Assembly (NCBI RefSeq): GCF_009177065.1
Contig: NZ_WEZF01000016.1
Span: 62,001 to 126,000, forward strand
DNA from: Tautonia marina
GTDB lineage: Bacteria; Planctomycetota; Planctomycetia; Isosphaerales; Isosphaeraceae
Length of the DNA: 64,000 nt
Direction of reading: 5' to 3'
In this document: positions 12,508-21,930 of the stretch, one piece after another
How the letters are laid out: each line of letters starts with the position of its first letter
Numbering within the stretch: the first letter of the stretch is position 1
Translations under genes and position numbers: made by a program
The notes under the pieces: generated by a model
What the model was told of the DNA's origin: nothing
The model's input: only the letters and a program-made list of their open reading frames with translations
The model's database searches: none

Positions 12508-14426
12508 CTCCCGGCGCGCGTCCCGCGCCGGCCGACGCCGTGCCGCCGCCGACCCTCGATCCGATCGTTTCGGCCACCGACGCGACGTCATTTGTCCCCC
12601 CGACGCTCAGGGATCTCGCCGTGTCATCCCCCGCCACCCCACCCAGGACGATGAGGGTTCTCCGGGGAATCGCCGTCAGCCCCGGCGTTGCCATCGGTCC
12701 CTTGCTCGTTCTGGCCCCTCGAGGGCCTCGGCTGACCCGACGCTCGATCCCCGCCTCGGCGGTCGATCTTGAACTGCTCCGTCTGGAGCAGGCCGTCGAA
12801 TCGGCCCGAATCGACGCCGAAGCCGCCGAACGCGACGCCCGTCAGCGGCTCGGCCCGCAGTATGCCGACATCCTCTCGGCCCACGTCCGGATGATCGCCG
12901 ATCCGACGCTCCGCGAGGAAGCCGCCGCCCGGATCAGCCGCGACTTGGTCACCGCCGAGCACGCCATCTTCGAGGTCCTCGACGGTTACGCCCGACAGCT
13001 GGAGCGGCTCGGTGCCGCCCATCTCGCGGCCCGGGCCGCCGACGTCCGCGACATCCAGCACCGCATTCTCGACCAACTGACCGATCACCCGCCCGCCCCG
13101 TCTCCGGCCGATTCGGCCGTCGAGCCCCTCTTGCTGCTGGCCGAGGATCTGACCCCGAGTGAGGCGGCCGCCCTCGACCCCACTCGGGTCCTCGGCTTCG
13201 CCACCGAATCGGGGGGACGGACCAGCCATACGGCCATCATCGCCGCGGCGCTGGAAATCCCGGCCGTCGTCGGCCTCGGCCGCGTTCTCGATCAGGTCCG
13301 AGACAGCCAGATGGCCATCATCGACGGTGATGCCGGGCTGGTGGTGCTCGACCCCGATGAGCCGACCCTTGGCCGTTACCGCGTTCGGGCCGTCGAGCAG
13401 GCCACCCGATTCGCCGAGCTGGCCCAACTGTCCGACCTTCCGGCCGAAACGGCCGACGGGGTCGGCATCCACCTGCTCGGCAATATCGAGTTTCCCGCCG
13501 AGGTCGAGGCCTGCCGAGAGCGGGGAGCCGAGGGGATCGGCCTGTTCCGAACCGAGTTCTTCTACCTCGGCGCCGACGGTCCTCCGGGTGAGGACGAGCA
13601 AACGGCCGCCTATGCCGAGGTGATTCAGGCCGCCGCCGGTCGTCCCGTGACCATCCGGACCCTTGACCTGGGTTCCGACAAGGTCGAACCTGGACGACCT
13701 CAGCATGTTGAGCCGAACCCGGCGCTTGGCCTGCGCAGCCTCCGCCGATCGCTCCGCGATCTGGGACCGTTCCGGACCCAACTCCGAGCGATCCTCCGAG
13801 CCGCCGCGGTCGTCGGCGGCGATGTGCGCGTCATGTTCCCTCTGGTAACCACCCTGACGGAGTTCCGGCAGGCCCGTGCGATCCTTCACGAAGTGGCCGC
13901 CGAACTGACGACCGAGGGAATCCCGGCCCGCTCCGACCTGCCCGTCGGGGCGATGATCGAGGTGCCGGCCGCAGCCATTATGAGTGACCAGCTGGCAAAG
14001 GAGGTGGACTTTTTCTCCATCGGCACCAATGACCTGACCCAGTATATCCTTGCCGCCGACCGAACCAACGAGACCGTGGCCGACCTTTACACGTCGGCCG
14101 ATCCGGCCGTGCTCCGCCTGATCGACATGGTCGCTCGGGCCGCCGAGGCCACCGGAATCGAACTGACCGTATGTGGGTCGATCGCCGGCGAGCCCCTTTA
14201 TACGATGCTGCTGCTGGGCCTGGGGATTCGCCAACTGAGCACCCCACCGCACCAGCTCCCGGAGGTCAAGCGTGTCATCCGCGCCATTCGACTGGACGAG
14301 GCCCGGGCCGTGGCCCGAGAGGCGCTCCAGTGCGACACCGCGGACGATGTGCTCGCCCTGCTGACCCGAGCCCTTCACCACGCTCTGCCCGATGATCCGA
14401 GCGAGCCTGACCTGGCCCGTCAGTAA
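12504..14426 (+). CDS. ptsI: PTS enzyme I (phosphoenolpyruvate-protein phosphotransferase)
   Basis: A 640-residue enzyme I, which takes phosphate from phosphoenolpyruvate and passes it to HPr. The phosphorylated His242 lies in GGRTSHTAI. PEP-binding blocks are GLFRTEFFYL, RTLDLGSDK, VGAMIEVPAAA and FFSIGTNDLTQYILAADR; the catalytic Cys is in LTVCGSIAGEP. Compared with standard enzyme I there is a 50-residue Pro/Ala-rich N-terminal extension before RGIAVSPGVAIGP; translation could instead begin at the internal ATG at 12651. The gene overlaps the HPr gene by ATGA. No sugar permease is nearby, which favours a regulatory phosphorelay. Confidence 0.95.
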   Translation: MTPGARPAPADAVPPPTLDPIVSATDATSFVPPTLRDLAVSSPATPPRTMRVLRGIAVSPGVAIGPLLVLAPRGPRLTRRSIPASAVDLELLRLEQAVESARIDAEAAERDARQRLGPQYADILSAHVRMIADPTLREEAAARISRDLVTAEHAIFEVLDGYARQLERLGAAHLAARAADVRDIQHRILDQLTDHPPAPSPADSAVEPLLLLAEDLTPSEAAALDPTRVLGFATESGGRTSHTAIIAAALEIPAVVGLGRVLDQVRDSQMAIIDGDAGLVVLDPDEPTLGRYRVRAVEQATRFAELAQLSDLPAETADGVGIHLLGNIEFPAEVEACRERGAEGIGLFRTEFFYLGADGPPGEDEQTAAYAEVIQAAAGRPVTIRTLDLGSDKVEPGRPQHVEPNPALGLRSLRRSLRDLGPFRTQLRAILRAAAVVGGDVRVMFPLVTTLTEFRQARAILHEVAAELTTEGIPARSDLPVGAMIEVPAAAIMSDQLAKEVDFFSIGTNDLTQYILAADRTNETVADLYTSADPAVLRLIDMVARAAEATGIELTVCGSIAGEPLYTMLLLGLGIRQLSTPPHQLPEVKRVIRAIRLDEARAVAREALQCDTADDVLALLTRALHHALPDDPSEPDLARQ

Positions 14427-14594: not shown

Positions 14595-15350
14595 ATGGAC
14601 GACGCCACTTCGCGGCTTCGAATCCGATTCGCCAAACGCGGCGACCTCCGCCTTGTCAGCCATCACGACCTGATGCGCTGTCTGGAACGAGTGTTGCGCC
14701 GAGCGGCCCTTCCTGTCGCCCACAGTCAGGGGTTCAACCCCCGGCCGAAGCTCTCGTTCCCGCTGGCCCTAGCCCTCGGTATCGAGGGGCGGCGCGAGGT
14801 TCTGGAGCTGGAACTGGCCGAACCCCTTCGACCCAGCGAGGTGCTGCGACGCCTTTGCGACGTCGCTCCCCCCGGCCTGGATTTCCTGGAAGCGATTCCG
14901 GCCCCGGGCCGTTCCGGCCGTGTCGCGTTCGTGGAGTACCTGTTCCCGCTACCTGACGAGCGTCGAGGACCGACGGTGGACGCTGTTGCCGCCTTGCTCG
15001 ACCGCCAGACGTGCCCCTACGTTCGCCGGAAGCCCGGCCGCGATGTGCCCCTCGACCTGCGGTCCTCAGTGCTCGATGCGCGAGTTGACCCGGCCGACGG
15101 CGCCCTGCGACTGCGGCTGAAGATCGACGCCGGGGTGTCCGCCCGACCTGAGGAAGTGCTCGACGTCCTCGGCCTTCGAGACCTGATGGCCGCCGGCACC
15201 GTCCTTTCCCGGACCGAGGTGGTTCTCACAACCGAGTCACCCGTGACCTCTACCGTGCCCGATCATTCGGGATCACCCCCTTCACCCCCAGCCCCTCGCG
15301 ACACCACGGATCCCAAACCCTCGGTGTCGCGATCTGGCCAGAGCCCATGA
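14595..15350 (+). CDS. DUF2344 (TIGR03936-like) radical-SAM-associated protein
   Basis: A 251-residue member of the DUF2344 family, usually fused to or encoded beside a radical SAM protein and very often next to an RNase E/G gene, as here (160 bp upstream of it). The typical start is present: RLRIRFAKRGDLRLVSHHDLMR, then QGFNPRPKLSFPLALALGIE. The last 35 residues are Pro/Ser/Thr-rich and probably unstructured. No radical SAM half is seen in this window. Biochemical function is unknown; the association suggests a role in RNA or ribosome metabolism. The start codon has only a weak ribosome-binding sequence. Confidence 0.87.
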   Translation: MDDATSRLRIRFAKRGDLRLVSHHDLMRCLERVLRRAALPVAHSQGFNPRPKLSFPLALALGIEGRREVLELELAEPLRPSEVLRRLCDVAPPGLDFLEAIPAPGRSGRVAFVEYLFPLPDERRGPTVDAVAALLDRQTCPYVRRKPGRDVPLDLRSSVLDARVDPADGALRLRLKIDAGVSARPEEVLDVLGLRDLMAAGTVLSRTEVVLTTESPVTSTVPDHSGSPPSPPAPRDTTDPKPSVSRSGQSP

Positions 15351-15510: not shown

Positions 15511-18500
15511 ATGAGCAAATCCAAAGAAATGCTGATCAACGTGCTCCAGCCCGAGGAGTGCCGCATTGCCATCGTCGAAGATGGCATCCTCGAGGAGCTT
15601 TACGTCGAACGCACCAGCCTGGAGAACTACACCGGCAACATCTACAAGGGCCGGATCGTCAACATCGAGCCGGCCATCCAGGCCGCCTTTGTCGACTTCT
15701 CCGTTGGTCGTAACGGCTTCCTGCACGTCTCCGACGTCGAGCCCCGCTACTACCGCGAACAGCTTGACGACGACGCGGTCCTCGGCGCCCGGGATCGCGG
15801 ACGCGATCCGAGGCCAAAGCTCCCCCCCGAGTCGGCGCGCGGCCCCGGTGCCGGTGCCGAGTCCGACGACGATCGCCGCGCTCGATCGCGATCTTCACGA
15901 CCGGAACGCAGCCGAGAGCTGCCCTCCGATCGCCCCCGAGGTCGCGGACGCGACCTCGTCGAACCGGTCCGTGACGAGGCTGCCGAGCCCCTGCCCTTCG
16001 AGGCCGAGGAACCCCTCAGCGAGCGCCGCCCGTTGCCCGATCGGCGCCGGGACCGCGACCGGGATCGAGGCCGCGATGACGTCCGGTCACGCGATCGCCT
16101 GGACGACGACTTCAACGAGCAGGACGATCTCGACCTCGATCGCAACCTGCCCGATTCGGCCGACGCGGAATCCGACGACGACGACCAGGCCGATGACCAG
16201 GGCCCTCGCGCCCCTCGCGGTCGCAGTCGAGGACGAGACAAGATCCGCGAACGTCGGATGCGCGATCGGGACCGGGATCGCCCCGACCTCTCCGAAAAAG
16301 GTCGGCGAGACCGTTCCCGTCCCCGACGCTTCGGCGAAGGACTGACCGACGAGCCGCTCGATGCTCCCGAGGTCGGCTTGCCTCCCGAGCCCGAGCCCGA
16401 GACCGAACCGGAAGATCGGCCCGCCCCCGCTCGTCCTCGCTTCGAGCGGCCCTCCAGCCCCTCTTCCCGGTCCTCCTTTGAAGGCCCTCGTGAGTTCGGC
16501 CGAGGACTCGTCCCGGAAAGCGAATCGACCAAGGAACCCCCGGCCCCCCGGCGCGGGCGATCGTCCGAACCGGAAGCCGAGGAGACCTCGTTCTCCTATC
16601 GCTGGTCGGTCGAACGGAAGCCGGAGCCCGAGGACTACGAGCCCGACCTTCCCCCGAGCAAGACCCAGCGTACTCGGCCCCCGGTTCGTCCCGAACCGAC
16701 CGAAGATCGACCGGCCGCTCTGCGAGACACCGACGAGGACGCGGCCGGCCGATCGGGGCCCCCTCCCCGATCGGGGCGAGGCCCGTCTCGCCGCCGAGGT
16801 CGAGGCGAATGGGACGCCCCGGCTCCGACCGAGGCGGACGACCTGTTCGGACCGGCTCCGGAGCTGCCCAGTCGAGACGATGATTCCGACGACCAAAGCA
16901 CGGAGCGGCGTCCCCGATCGGGGCGTGATTCCATCCGAGGTCGGGGTGATCGGGACCGGCCCGGTCGAGGGCTGCCTCGCGGACCTTCCGTCGAAGGGGA
17001 AGCATCCGACACCCGGGAAACCGAGCCGGGAGAATCGTCAGGCCCCGGTCGCCCTCGTCGCATCGATCGTGCCGGAGAGCCTGGCTATATTCCTCGTCGT
17101 GAACGGGCCAAGCTGCTCGATCGGTCGTCCGACCTTGAGGAACCGGAGCTGCCCACGCTCGACGCCGACTCTCGAGGCGAGGCTGAAGGCGACGACGATG
17201 AGAACCGCCGCCGTCGCCGACGCCGTCGGCGTCGAGGGCGCGGCGATCGTGATCGCGAGCCGAGTTTTGAGGCGGATCGTGACGAGTCGCCCGACTCGGC
17301 CGTGGCTCAGTCCACCCTGGGCAAGCCCCCGGCCTTGATCGATGAATCGGCCCTGGCCAACGAATTCGACTTCGTTGATCACGACGATCAGGAGGACTTC
17401 GAGAGCGAAGACGACTCCGACGCCGATGAACAGGAAGTCGTTTCCGAGGACATCGAGCCGGAATTGCTTGAGGAGATCGCCCGGGAGATCGAGGAAATCC
17501 GGGTCCTGGAACGCGAGGTCGGCTTCCGAGGCCGAGGGGCCGAGGGCCGCTCGCGAGACTCCGCCGACGAGGACGATGAGGCTCGGGAAACCACCGTCGT
17601 CCGGGGCGGTCGTCGCGTCACCGTCAAGCCGCCGATCCAGGAGGTCTTCAAGCGCGGTGACGAGGTCCTGGTGCAGGTCATCAAGGAGTCGATCGGCACC
17701 AAGGGGCCGACCCTCTCGACCTACATCAGCATCCCCGGCCGCTACCTGGTCTTGATGCCCGGCCTGAACCGCGTGGGCGTCTCCCGGAAGATCGCCGACG
17801 AAGGCCAGCGCCGCAAGCTTCGGCAGATCATGCACGAGCTGAACCCACCCAAGGGGCTCGGCTTCATCGTCCGGACCGCCGGGCTCGATCGTTCGAAGCG
17901 CGACCTGGCCCGCGACCTGGCCTACTTGCTTCGCCTCTGGAAGGTCATCCTGCGACGGATCAAGAAGGCCCGGACCCCGGCTCCGATTTATCAAGAATCG
18001 GACATGATCATCCGGACAATCCGGGACATCTTCAATTCCGAGATCGATACCATCTGGATCGACGAACCCCAGGCGTTTGAACGGGCCAGGGAGTTCCTGC
18101 AAGTCGTCATGCCTCGGTTCGTCGATCGCCTGAAACTGTACGAGGGGAAGGTCCCCTTGTTCCAGAAGTACGGCCTCGAAGAAGAGATCAACAAGATCCA
18201 GCGCCGGCAGGTCCACCTGCCCGACGGCGGCTCGATCGTCATCGACCAGACCGAGGCGCTGGTGGCGATCGACGTCAACAGCGGCAACTTCCGGGTCGAG
18301 GACGACGCCGAGCGAACCGCCTATGAGATGAACCTCAAGGCCGCCAAGGAGATTGCCCGCCAGCTTCGCCTGCGAGACCTCGGGGGCGTGATCGTCAACG
18401 ACTTCATCGATATGAGGGACGAGCGGCACCGCCGAGGCGTCGAGCGAGCCCTCCGAGACGCGGTCAAACGCGACCGGGCCCGCACGAAGATTCTTCGGAT

Positions 18501-18909
18501 GAGCCAGTTCGGCCTGATTGAAATGACCCGCCAGCGCATTCGGCCCAGCCTGAAGCGCTCCGTCTACCACGAGTGCGAGCACTGTGGCGGCGGCGGCCTG
18601 GTCAAGACGGTCGAGAGCATGGCCATCGATGCCATGCGGCTGATTGCCTTCGCCATTCACCGCGAAGGGGTCCGAAGCATCCGGGTGGACGTGTGTGAAG
18701 ACGTGGCCACGTTCCTGAACAACCGCAAACGTCAGGAACTGGCGGCCATCGAATCCGGCTCGTCGATCTCGATCCAGATCTGCCCGGTCGATCGGGCCGT
18801 TCGGGAACACCTCGTTGTGCAGATTGTCGACGCCCACGGCAACGAGGTGCCGTTCCTGTCGCCTCAGAATTCCTCGTCGTTGGGCCCGCCGAACCGCCGC
18901 CGACGCTGA
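15511..18909 (+). CDS. rng: RNase E/G-family endoribonuclease with giant insertion in S1 domain
   Basis: An 1132-residue RNase E/G, the main single-strand-specific RNA-decay enzyme of many bacteria. Residues 1-83 are the first part of the S1 domain (NIYKGRIVNIEPAIQAAFVD, GFLHVSD). Residues about 84-708 are a low-complexity, Arg/Asp/Glu/Pro-rich segment, including ten consecutive Arg at 566-575. The S1 domain resumes at IQEVFKRGDEVLVQV. Catalytic Asp921 (AIDVNS) and Asp964 (NDFIDM) and the Zn-link Cys1022/Cys1025 have exactly the spacing of D303, D346, C404 and C407 in E. coli RNase E, so the offset of 618 lies wholly before Asp921. The frame is unbroken through the insertion. There is no long C-terminal tail, so the insertion may do the scaffold job of the E. 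coli C-terminus. Confidence 0.95.
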   Translation: MSKSKEMLINVLQPEECRIAIVEDGILEELYVERTSLENYTGNIYKGRIVNIEPAIQAAFVDFSVGRNGFLHVSDVEPRYYREQLDDDAVLGARDRGRDPRPKLPPESARGPGAGAESDDDRRARSRSSRPERSRELPSDRPRGRGRDLVEPVRDEAAEPLPFEAEEPLSERRPLPDRRRDRDRDRGRDDVRSRDRLDDDFNEQDDLDLDRNLPDSADAESDDDDQADDQGPRAPRGRSRGRDKIRERRMRDRDRDRPDLSEKGRRDRSRPRRFGEGLTDEPLDAPEVGLPPEPEPETEPEDRPAPARPRFERPSSPSSRSSFEGPREFGRGLVPESESTKEPPAPRRGRSSEPEAEETSFSYRWSVERKPEPEDYEPDLPPSKTQRTRPPVRPEPTEDRPAALRDTDEDAAGRSGPPPRSGRGPSRRRGRGEWDAPAPTEADDLFGPAPELPSRDDDSDDQSTERRPRSGRDSIRGRGDRDRPGRGLPRGPSVEGEASDTRETEPGESSGPGRPRRIDRAGEPGYIPRRERAKLLDRSSDLEEPELPTLDADSRGEAEGDDDENRRRRRRRRRRGRGDRDREPSFEADRDESPDSAVAQSTLGKPPALIDESALANEFDFVDHDDQEDFESEDDSDADEQEVVSEDIEPELLEEIAREIEEIRVLEREVGFRGRGAEGRSRDSADEDDEARETTVVRGGRRVTVKPPIQEVFKRGDEVLVQVIKESIGTKGPTLSTYISIPGRYLVLMPGLNRVGVSRKIADEGQRRKLRQIMHELNPPKGLGFIVRTAGLDRSKRDLARDLAYLLRLWKVILRRIKKARTPAPIYQESDMIIRTIRDIFNSEIDTIWIDEPQAFERAREFLQVVMPRFVDRLKLYEGKVPLFQKYGLEEEINKIQRRQVHLPDGGSIVIDQTEALVAIDVNSGNFRVEDDAERTAYEMNLKAAKEIARQLRLRDLGGVIVNDFIDMRDERHRRGVERALRDAVKRDRARTKILRMSQFGLIEMTRQRIRPSLKRSVYHECEHCGGGGLVKTVESMAIDAMRLIAFAIHREGVRSIRVDVCEDVATFLNNRKRQELAAIESGSSISIQICPVDRAVREHLVVQIVDAHGNEVPFLSPQNSSSLGPPNRRRR

Positions 18910-18998: not shown

Positions 18999-20114
18999 TC
19001 AGGAGCGGCTGATGGCCTCTCGGATCGCGCGGCCCACCTCGGAGGTCGAGCTGGAACCGCCCAGATCGGGGGTCTTCGGGCCGTTCGGATCGGCCAGGAC
19101 CTGGGCCACGGCCGATCGGACCGATCCGGCGGCCTCGGCCGCGCCGAGGTGGTCGAGCAACATTCCGATCGAGAGAATCGCCGCGATCGGGTTCGCCTTG
19201 CCGGTTCCGGCGATGTCGGGGGCCGACCCGTGGACCGGCTCGAACATGCTCGGGAAGGTTCGCTCGGGGTTCAAATTGCCCGAGGAGGCGACCCCCATGC
19301 CTCCCTGCAAGACAGCTCCCAGGTCGGTGATGATGTCGCCGAACATGTTCGTGGTGACGATCACGTCGTACCGCTCGGGAGCGACCACCATGCGCATGCA
19401 GCAGGCGTCGACGTGGTGGTAGTCGGTCGCGAGCGAGGGATAATCGGGGGCGACTTCCTCGAAGGCCCGATTCCAGAGGTCGTGAGCGAAGGTCAGGACG
19501 TTGGTCTTGGCGACCAGGGAGACGAGCCCTCGCTTGCCGGCGTCTCGGGCGGCCGGGCTGAGGCCGGGGAAGACGCGGTCTTTGGCCCGTTTCTCCGCCA
19601 GGGCGAAGGCGTAACGGAGGCAACGCTCGACGCCAGCCCGGGTATTGATGGAGGTCTGGATGGCGACCTCTTCGGGTGTTCCCTTGCGGGTGAAGCCACC
19701 GGCGCCGACGTACAGGTCTTCGTTGTTCTCTCGAACGACGACCATGTCGATCTCGCCAGGCCCCTTACCCTTGATCGGCGTCTCGACGCCGGGCATGAGC
19801 TGCACGGGTCGAAGGTTGATGTATTGCTGGAACTCGAATCGGATGCGGAGCAGGAGCCCTTTTTCCAGGACTCCGGGAGGGACGCGAGGATCGCCGATCG
19901 CTCCCAGCAGAATGGCGTCGCACCCGGCGAGTTCCTGAAGCACCGAGTCGGGCAGGACCTCTCCGGATCGGAGGTAGCGGTCGCTCCCCAGGTCAAACGA
20001 CTGGAACGACAGCCCGAGCTTGTGGGCCGATCCCAGGTCTTGAAGGATGGCGAGTGCCTCGCCAATCACCTCAGGACCCACACCATCACCGGGGATCACT
20101 CCGATCGTGGCCAC
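18999..20114 (-). CDS. leuB: 3-isopropylmalate dehydrogenase-like enzyme
   Basis: A 371-residue member of the isocitrate/isopropylmalate dehydrogenase family, NAD-dependent beta-decarboxylating. It starts with IGVIPGDGVGPEV; the substrate-binding region is LLLRIRFEFQQYINLRPVQ, and the catalytic Tyr lies in VRENNEDLYVG. MFEPVHGSAPDIAGTGKANP is the NAD-binding signature. The RFEFQQYINLRP and ENNEDLYVG wording also fits tartrate/3-isopropylmalate dehydrogenase relatives, so leucine synthesis is likely but not certain. The start is GTG with GAGGAG about 5 bases upstream; an upstream in-frame ATG adds non-conserved sequence. No other leu gene is adjacent. Confidence 0.85.
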   Translation of the reverse strand: MATIGVIPGDGVGPEVIGEALAILQDLGSAHKLGLSFQSFDLGSDRYLRSGEVLPDSVLQELAGCDAILLGAIGDPRVPPGVLEKGLLLRIRFEFQQYINLRPVQLMPGVETPIKGKGPGEIDMVVVRENNEDLYVGAGGFTRKGTPEEVAIQTSINTRAGVERCLRYAFALAEKRAKDRVFPGLSPAARDAGKRGLVSLVAKTNVLTFAHDLWNRAFEEVAPDYPSLATDYHHVDACCMRMVVAPERYDVIVTTNMFGDIITDLGAVLQGGMGVASSGNLNPERTFPSMFEPVHGSAPDIAGTGKANPIAAILSIGMLLDHLGAAEAAGSVRSAVAQVLADPNGPKTPDLGGSSSTSEVGRAIREAISRS

Positions 20115-20472
20115 TGCGTCTCCTCGCTCTTGGTTCAATGTGCGTGGAAAAGTTCGGAAACTCGAAGGGTCACCCGGCTTGCCGGGCACCCGTAGAATGA
20201 AGGGTGCATCTCGAAACTGATCCACCCTTCGATTCGATGCTGCCGCCGGAGCCGTTTGGTCCATGGACCATCGCGCGGGGTCCCGTCAGGCTCTCCAGGA
20301 TCGGGAGGCCCGTTGACAATCTCAAGCGGCGCTTCATACTACGAAAAAACCGGGCTCCGATCGACGCCTCGCTCAGGACGATCTTCGATCGGTTTCCTCG
20401 GTTCGCTTCACAGGTTCGAACACATCGCGCCGCGCTTCATCATCCATTCGACCGATCGACCACGCCAACGGA
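20115..20472. promoter_or_regulatory. Divergent region between leuB-like and kinase genes
   Basis: These 358 bases hold the promoters of both divergent genes; no clear promoter box was recognised. An imperfect stem (about 20167-20191, arms GGGTCACCCGG and CCGGGCACCC with a small bulge) lies 53-77 bases upstream of the leuB-like start and could be part of its leader. No leucine-rich leader peptide was found. Confidence 0.35.
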
Positions 20473-21930
20473 ATGACGCTTATGGGCACCTCCGCCGAAG
20501 GAAAGACTCCGGGCCCGCCCGAAGCCGCTGCGCCGAAGCCGACCGCCGCTCCCGCCCCGAGTGGTGGATCGAAGCCGACCGCCGGTGCCCCACCAGCTGC
20601 TCGGGCTTCCAGCCTTCCGAAGCAGGCCCCCGCAGCTTCGAAATCAGCGGGACCAGGGCTTTCGGCCTTGTCGGAAGCGAATCTTGAGCAAACGGTCATC
20701 CGGCGGGGCCTTGTGACTGAGCAAGAGCTTCAGACCTGCAAGGCCCACCGAGCCCGGCTTGCCGAGTCGGGCCAGGGCGAAGGGAAGGGCTTGCTGGAGG
20801 TGATGGTTGCCGCCAAGGCCCTGACTCCGACCCAGGCCCAGCGGTTGCTCCGCGATCTGGGACGCGAGGCGCAGAAGAAGCACGAGATCCCCGGCTACCA
20901 GCTTCTCGAAAAGCTCGGCAAAGGGTCGATGGGGATCGTTTACAAGGCCAAGCAAACGAGCGTCGATCGGGTGGTGGCCGTGAAGGTCCTGCTCGACGTG
21001 CTGGCCCGGAACAAGGAATTCATCCGCCGTTTCCAGCGCGAGGCGACCATCGCCGCCCGCTTGAATCATCCGAACATTGTCAACGCGATCGACGCGGGTG
21101 AGGTCAACGGACTGCATTTCTTCGTGATGGAGTTCGTCGAAGGAACGACGATCAAGGATGTGATCGAAGGTGGCCACATCTACGACGAACCCGAGGCGCT
21201 TCGGATCGTTCTGGCGGTGGCCGAAGCCATGAAGCACGCCCACGAGCGTGGGTTGATCCATCGCGACATCAAGCCCGAGAACATCATCCTGACCAAGGAC
21301 GGCAACGTCAAACTGGCCGACCTGGGTCTGGCTCGCCTGACCGCCGACGAAAAACAGGCCGTGGCCGAGGCGGGCATGGCCATCGGCACGCCGTACTACA
21401 TCAGCCCCGAACAGGTTCGGGGAGCCACGGATGTCGATATTCGGAGCGATATCTACAACCTCGGCGCGACGCTCTACCACATGGTCACCGGCCGCCCGCC
21501 GTTCCCCGGCGACGACCCGACCGAGGTGATGAAGAAACACGTCGACAAGTCGATCACCCTGACCCCGCCCGACCATCTCAATACCCGCCTCTCCAGCGGC
21601 CTTGGCGAGGTGGTCGAGACGATGATGGCCCGCAACCGGGAGAACCGCTACCGCGATCCCGGCGATGTGATCATTGACCTGAAAGCCCTGATCGAAGGCA
21701 ATCGCCCGGTCATCGCCGAGCAAAAGGCCGACACCCTCGCCAAGCTGGCCGAAGGGGACGCCGACGAGGACGAAGCCTTCTACGATGACGAGCACGGGCC
21801 CGGCATGACGGATTCGGAGCGGGTGGAACTCGCCGGAATCGTCAACGCCCGGAACAATATCATCGCGGTACTCGCCATCCTGCTCGGTCTGTCGCTGGTG
21901 TCGAACATCATCGTGTTGATCGCCCGCTGA
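20473..21930 (+). CDS. Ser/Thr protein kinase with C-terminal membrane anchor
   Basis: A 485-residue Hanks-type kinase. Residues 1-65 are Pro/Ala-rich. Residues about 70-135 form a small helical domain (RGLVTEQELQTCKAHRARL, LEVMVAAKALTPTQAQRLL) resembling GspE/MshE N-terminal domains. The kinase domain runs from about 142: glycine loop GKGSMGIVY, Lys in VVAVKVL, catalytic HRDIKPEN with His263, then ADLGLA in place of DFG, and GTPYYISPEQ. The protein ends with a single hydrophobic helix (IIAVLAILLGLSLVSNIIVLI), so it looks tail-anchored with the kinase in the cytoplasm and no external sensor. An alternative start lies three codons downstream (20482). Substrates are unknown. Confidence 0.93.
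   Translation: MTLMGTSAEGKTPGPPEAAAPKPTAAPAPSGGSKPTAGAPPAARASSLPKQAPAASKSAGPGLSALSEANLEQTVIRRGLVTEQELQTCKAHRARLAESGQGEGKGLLEVMVAAKALTPTQAQRLLRDLGREAQKKHEIPGYQLLEKLGKGSMGIVYKAKQTSVDRVVAVKVLLDVLARNKEFIRRFQREATIAARLNHPNIVNAIDAGEVNGLHFFVMEFVEGTTIKDVIEGGHIYDEPEALRIVLAVAEAMKHAHERGLIHRDIKPENIILTKDGNVKLADLGLARLTADEKQAVAEAGMAIGTPYYISPEQVRGATDVDIRSDIYNLGATLYHMVTGRPPFPGDDPTEVMKKHVDKSITLTPPDHLNTRLSSGLGEVVETMMARNRENRYRDPGDVIIDLKALIEGNRPVIAEQKADTLAKLAEGDADEDEAFYDDEHGPGMTDSERVELAGIVNARNNIIAVLAILLGLSLVSNIIVLIAR

Follow-up and report, generated by a model that had tools for sequence, protein, structure and literature searches.

A long, predicted disordered and motif-bearing insert in the S1 domain of RNase E from Isosphaeraceae, a probable scaffold region

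The RNase E of Tautonia marina is interrupted within its S1 domain by 624 residues, and the interpretation we favour is that this insert is probably a disordered, motif-bearing scaffold region of the enzyme that is hosted in a loop of the S1 domain instead of at the C-terminus. The gene lies in a window of 64,000 nucleotides (the whole stretch of DNA analysed, to which all coordinates refer), and its features are collected in Table 1. Inserts at the same site, 530–936 aa long, occur throughout the family Isosphaeraceae, and a search of the open-licence literature by title or abstract retrieved no description of them.

Table 1. The RNase E gene of the window, its parts, and the short motifs of the insert; residue numbers are those of the window protein and motif counts refer to Isosphaeraceae inserts.
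Feature	Position	Strand	Basis
rne/rng gene, RNase E/G, 1132 aa	15511..18909	+	ORF list, Pfam, phmmer
N-terminal part and first half of S1, residues 1-81	15511..15753	+	Pfam, phmmer, structure alignment
Predicted disordered S1 insert, residues 82-705 (127 R/K, 170 D/E)	15754..17625	+	phmmer, composition, structure prediction
Second half of S1 and remaining catalytic domain, residues 706-1117	17626..18861	+	Pfam, phmmer, structure alignment
Motif A, RPDLS...RRFGEGLTD, residues 252-280; first FGxGL copy at 274-278 (16330-16344)	16264..16350	+	MAFFT alignment, motif counts
Second FGxGL copy, FGRGL, residues 329-333	16495..16509	+	motif counts
Motif B, DLPPS, residues 379-383; in 20/31	16645..16659	+	MAFFT alignment, motif counts
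Motif C, RDSIRGRG, residues 472-479; R-x-[AS]-IR-x-RG in 28/31	16924..16947	+	MAFFT alignment, motif counts
Motif D, GEPGYIPR, residues 522-529; GEPGY[VI]PR in 26/31	17074..17097	+	MAFFT alignment, motif counts
Motif E, ten Arg, residues 566-575; at least 5 Arg in 31/31	17206..17235	+	motif counts
Motif F, residues 650-673: helix 650-670 and LEREVGFR (LERExGxR in 26/31)	17458..17529	+	MAFFT, motif counts, pLDDT

By every test made, the window protein is an RNase E. It scores 482.7 bits against TIGR00757 (cut-off 325.95), and Pfam assigns RNase_E_G to residues 740–1009 and the thioredoxin-like domain RNase_E_G_Thio to 1022–1103, with only half of the S1 profile matched, at residues 41–83. Alignment to E. 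coli RNase E (2vrt_A) by phmmer breaks into two blocks, residues 5–81 matching 2–78 and residues 706–1117 matching 87–499, with 624 residues between them in the window protein versus 8 in E. coli. A preliminary description made from the sequence had placed the extra residues inside S1 and had considered the catalytic core intact with the spacing of E. coli, and both points hold. D921, D964, C1022 and C1025, counted along the phmmer alignment, correspond to E. coli positions 303, 346, 404 and 407 and are invariant across 63 aligned proteins; the two Asp ligands and the Zn-link Cys pair are present, and the S1 barrel is complete in the structural model described below. The protein ends about 15 residues past the last aligned core residue, and C-terminal extensions across the family measure 14–53 aa, so that the long disordered C-terminal extension of an E. 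coli-type scaffold is absent, as the same description had noted. In two Isosphaeraceae (L046 and L047) the C-termini of RNase E are long His/Gly repeats.

Directly upstream of the gene is a DUF2344 (PF10105) protein (14595–15347, + strand), a member of a family that is a frequent neighbour of rng genes. Downstream are an isocitrate/isopropylmalate dehydrogenase (18999–20264, - strand) and a protein with a protein kinase domain (20473–21927, + strand). No Rfam family matched between positions 14000 and 20000 of the window at the gathering threshold, and a PHROGs search with the insert gave no match up to E 0.01.

The alignment behind the AlphaFold2 model comprised 63 sequences, and just three besides the window protein carry the long Isosphaeraceae insert. 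In the model, 463 residues have a pLDDT of at least 90 and 536 a value below 50. Almost all of these low-scoring residues belong to the insert, where low values extend across most of residues 101–629; the insert is therefore predicted to be disordered. Crystal structures of the S1 domain align to the model (1sn8_B with 80/80 residues, rmsd 1.9 and Z 13.1; 1smx_B with 81/81 residues, rmsd 2.0), and as the aligned range of 42–744 covers both S1 halves, these are one barrel in the model. It follows that a chain of some 620 residues would leave and re-enter S1 at a single point. The Caulobacter structure 4oxp aligns with 189/200 of its residues to model range 38–835 (rmsd 3.7). Superposed over the whole chain, the model differs from most E. 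coli entries by an rmsd of 16–17 Å, and the relative placement of domains in the model is for this reason not to be trusted.

Matches to profile PF10150 were obtained in 41 of 45 Isosphaeraceae genomes, the other 4 having none. Thirty-three loci were fetched, the window's own included; 8 further matches, which were incomplete or ran into a contig edge, were left out. Of the 33 loci, 31 possess the S1 insert. The two remaining loci have broken frames and were dropped. A filter of 300 aa was applied to inserts before motifs were counted, by which no protein with a measurable insert was lost. In one of the dropped loci (L053, genome G029) the broken frame contains letters that resemble a translated sequencing adapter, probably an assembly artefact. 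In the other (L056, genome G032), RNase E switches frame between its N-terminal part and the remainder, so the break must fall within the insert or close to it.

An alignment of 26 of these inserts (MAFFT) consists of conserved islands amid variable sequence. All six motifs of Table 1 occur together in 16 of the 31 inserts, and the order of those present is constant in every one. The motif F[GA]xG[ILV], referred to below as the FG motif, is found in all 31, with one to three copies per protein. Runs of at least five Arg, of which the ten Arg already remarked on in the window protein are an example, would be expected in 2.8 inserts from shuffled sequences and are observed in all 31. Stricter patterns are less frequent: RPDLS in 12 inserts, D-x-DLPPS in 14 (not including the window's) and PExxEEIxxEIEE in 11.

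The Isosphaeraceae motifs other than FG are nearly confined to that family. Among 43 S1 inserts of the Gemmataceae group, which comprises family f6 and seven named loci (including L141, which contributes two FG matches), GEPGY is absent and LERE occurs once. The FG motif is different in this respect. Using profiles of the parts flanking the insert, 236 RNase E proteins were segmented (229 after removal of duplicates), and strict F[GA]xG[ILV] matches were counted in regions of at least 60 aa. Isosphaeraceae S1 inserts contain 51 matches, compared to a shuffle mean of 0.49 and a maximum of 4; in the Gemmataceae group, 20 of 43 S1 inserts carry the motif (38 matches, 0.85 in shuffles), or 19 of 42 when L141, which stands apart in the tree, is left aside. 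The motif also occurs in N-terminal extensions, namely in 11 of 22 from family f35 (11 matches, 0.18 in shuffles) and in 7 of 21 from the f81 order (7 matches, 0.11 in shuffles). As the motif was first spotted by eye in Isosphaeraceae, in the first f6 proteins and in three proteins with N-extensions (L106, L108 and L109), it is relevant that the later-fetched loci, counted without those three, still give 9 of 20 for f35 and 6 of 20 for the f81 order.

Elsewhere the motif is rare. It is absent from the N-extensions of Isosphaeraceae (0/9), the N- and C-extensions of the Gemmataceae group (0/4 each), the S1 inserts of f35 of at least 60 aa (0/19) and the C-extensions of the f81 order (0/3). Other proteins have it in 2 of 25 N-extensions, 1 of 11 S1 inserts and none of 23 C-extensions; these are single records from distant planctomycetes (L186 in the S1 insert, L185 and L189 in the N-extension). 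Since the motif is missing from many S1 inserts (23 of 43 in the Gemmataceae group) and N-extensions (11 of 22 in f35, 14 of 21 in the f81 order) and from all 30 C-extensions tested, it is not obligatory. The shuffles count related proteins as independent and so overstate the contrast within a family; the occurrence of the motif in four lineages and at two locations is the stronger point.

The sites conform to F-[GA]-[A, E, S...]-G-[LIV] and are commonly followed by acidic residues, which are found two places past the end of the site in 79, 66, 40 and 85% and three places past it in 66, 61, 0 and 43% of cases (Isosphaeraceae, Gemmataceae group, f35 and f81 order, respectively). A separate motif, PNDRF, occurs in 15 of the 43 Gemmataceae-group inserts (L093–L099, L213–L246), in several proteins as DFDPxAPNDRF.

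That the FG motif is a general trait of disordered regions was rejected. In the window and the named loci, other disordered-like ORF segments, delimited by crude ORF calling and a crude proxy for disorder, gave 5 matches in 57,951 residues versus 3.74 in shuffles, compared to 9 matches in 13,963 residues (0.36 in shuffles) for the RNase E proteins of the same loci. A DEAD-box helicase as a carrier or hub of the motif was likewise rejected. The DbpA-domain helicase of the window genome does have GFGSGV ahead of its DbpA domain, but among 9 such helicases (9/26 Isosphaeraceae genomes) the motif is found in only the two from the genus of the window, and in none of 7 readable Gemmataceae helicases.

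Among the closest known counterparts is the S1 insertion of Caulobacter crescentus RNase E (PDB 4OXP), which also lies within S1, is charged, and is predicted to be disordered with a helical part. The residue-by-residue comparison covered its return side to S1, which aligns with that of the window protein. According to Voss et al. 2014 (PMC4245959), S1 insertions of alpha-proteobacteria and plants are charged and disordered and about 50–150 aa long, RhlB of Caulobacter binds an N-terminal RNase E fragment that contains the insertion, and deletion of the S1 insertion of Arabidopsis chloroplast RNase E lowers activity. The window insert shares site, charge and predicted disorder with these, and differs in length (624 aa, and 530–936 aa in the family); for the plant chloroplast insertion, which is in the same domain and shorter, the comparison is by description. 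Caulobacter RNase E, unlike that of Isosphaeraceae, also retains a disordered C-terminal scaffold. The best reading is that the insert is an enlarged form of the known S1 inserts.

In size and motif layout it resembles the C-terminal scaffolds of E. coli and Pseudomonas aeruginosa, long disordered regions with Arg-rich and other short motifs, which in P. aeruginosa bind RNA, RhlB and PNPase (PMC11964227). The window protein thus combines the insertion site known from alpha-proteobacteria and plants with the size and layout of the P. aeruginosa scaffold, although the latter is C-terminal and RNA binding and docking by the insert are only inferred. The Arg run recalls the C-terminal nonapeptide of Anabaena RNase E, RRRRRRSSA, which binds PNPase (PMC11964227, PMC10989914); the cyanobacterial nonapeptide is at the very C-terminus, whereas the Isosphaeraceae run is in mid-insert, and it could equally be an RNA-binding patch. 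Gemmataceae have an insert at the same S1 site (233–503 aa in f6) that differs in the acidic, not Arg-rich, context of its FG motif, in the motif PNDRF and in lacking GEPGY.

Of the alternatives to a scaffold, an autoregulatory gate survives best, although we consider it unlikely. The insert, and chiefly the acidic helix beside its return to S1, would cover the RNA-binding face and shift upon arrival of substrate or a partner. This helix is confidently predicted in an otherwise disordered insert (mean pLDDT 96 for residues 651–660 and 94 for 661–670), LERExGxR is conserved in 26 of the 31 inserts, and phmmer pairs residues from 679 onward with the final part of the insert of Caulobacter. There, the helix of the S1 insert reaches into the predicted RNA site, and it has been proposed to be an acidic mimic of RNA (PMC4245959). 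A gate accounts for the last 30–40 residues only, however, and the ordered motifs elsewhere are left without explanation.

Less probable still is a multivalent condensate former, in which charge blocks, Arg runs and FG-type stickers would give RNase E bodies akin to BR-bodies with no need of specific docking partners. Local net charge has a larger variance than in shuffled sequences, both in the window insert (z 4.6) and in all 31 Isosphaeraceae inserts (z 2.2–14.3; 0.4–9.3 across 40 Gemmataceae inserts), and the disordered region of S. meliloti RNase E, which forms BR-bodies, has alternating charge patches (PMC12691583). Conservation of the motifs in sequence and in order goes beyond what such a composition requires, and one to three FG motifs per protein are few for stickers.

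That the insert is a tolerated, functionless loop grown neutrally in a GC-rich genome is very improbable. Its low-complexity composition (rich in R, E, P and D) and variable length would suit this idea, as would its faster evolution, with dN/dS against the same-genus locus L032 of 0.163 in the insert and 0.023 in the core. Values of this size are nevertheless well below 1, and against L033 and L031 they are 0.29 and 0.32 in the insert (0.10 and 0.16 in the core). Substitutions between the window insert and L032 number 77, 28 and 221 at codon positions 1, 2 and 3. The insert is a coding sequence under purifying selection (dN/dS 0.16–0.32), and neutrality is also hard to square with the constant motif order and with an FG motif that is found again in distant lineages. 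The idea that the insert arose in assembly, or is excised prior to translation, has nothing in its favour in the window, the broken frames being those of two relatives, and can be dismissed given the codon-position bias and the 31 distinct loci in which the frame is open over a similar length.

A motif shared by the S1 inserts of two lineages and the N-extensions of two others is what is expected of a scaffold that can be placed at different sites. The idea of a relocated degradosome scaffold, advanced in the preliminary description, is upheld in part. The insert is family-wide, predicted to be disordered, charged in blocks and equipped with motifs in fixed order, and it stands in for the missing terminal extension; in comparisons short of a systematic search for microdomains, nothing points to a move of the C-terminal sequence of E. 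coli as such.

Location varies between lineages. S1 inserts of at least 200 aa were counted in 80 and C-extensions of at least 150 aa in 21 of 215 proteins, and a single protein (L172) has both. Proteins of f35 and of the f81 order carry their long region at the N-terminus, with raw medians of 342 and 351 aa, lengths that derive from stop-to-stop frames, may be too long and were trimmed to the first Met in the tree. The S1 site of the 105 other segmentable proteins, some of them not planctomycete, is occupied by 6–311 aa, with a median of 22. Two proteins of planctomycete family f45 (L102 and L103) combine a long N-extension (310 and 228 aa, raw) with an insert of 267 and 311 aa in S1, and the FG motif is absent from them. 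In a gene tree of 151 RNase E cores, obtained by a quick method with 46 of 148 inner branches open, location changes state 19 times; the S1 state needs 5 changes, at least 2 of which are forced by starred branches, and Isosphaeraceae and Gemmataceae are not resolved as sisters.

On this basis we tentatively suggest, at somewhat less than even confidence, that RNase E of Planctomycetota has a portable scaffold, situated in the S1 loop or at the N- or C-terminus according to lineage, that a docking motif F[GA]xG[LI], usually with acidic residues after it, travels along in the first two of these locations, and that in Isosphaeraceae and Gemmataceae, where the scaffold would issue from S1, partners and RNA may be fed from within the RNA-binding domain. 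If the precedent of Caulobacter applies, the point of exit and re-entry would be near the RNA-binding face. RNA enters a channel to which S1 contributes. The Arg-rich motifs of the chain leaving S1 probably hold RNA; for F[GA]xG[LI], GEPGYVPR and the terminal helix, a role in docking decay partners or the enzyme itself is probable, and short motifs of this kind would recruit PNPase or other proteins to the site of RNA cutting. By the same analogy, the helix near the S1 return may gate the RNA face. We infer RNA binding, docking and any condensation from such features; PNPase and DEAD-domain proteins are encoded in the window genome.

The usual picture of an RNA degradosome is a catalytic domain with a terminal tail. 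A survey of 2011 lists planctomycete RNase E/G proteins of 509–588 aa (Table 2) and judges them by size to be without potential for a degradosome-like complex (PMC3071783); the insert-bearing planctomycete enzymes correct this view. The S1 site for RNase E inserts was already known, and what is new in Isosphaeraceae is the size and the motif layout. The FG motif, short and found in several lineages at more than one position, offers a direct handle toward a partner, and the natural occurrence of N-, S1- and C-placed versions permits a test of whether the position of the scaffold matters. In the RNase E of Isosphaeraceae, the role of the tail seems to be filled from inside a folded RNA-binding domain.
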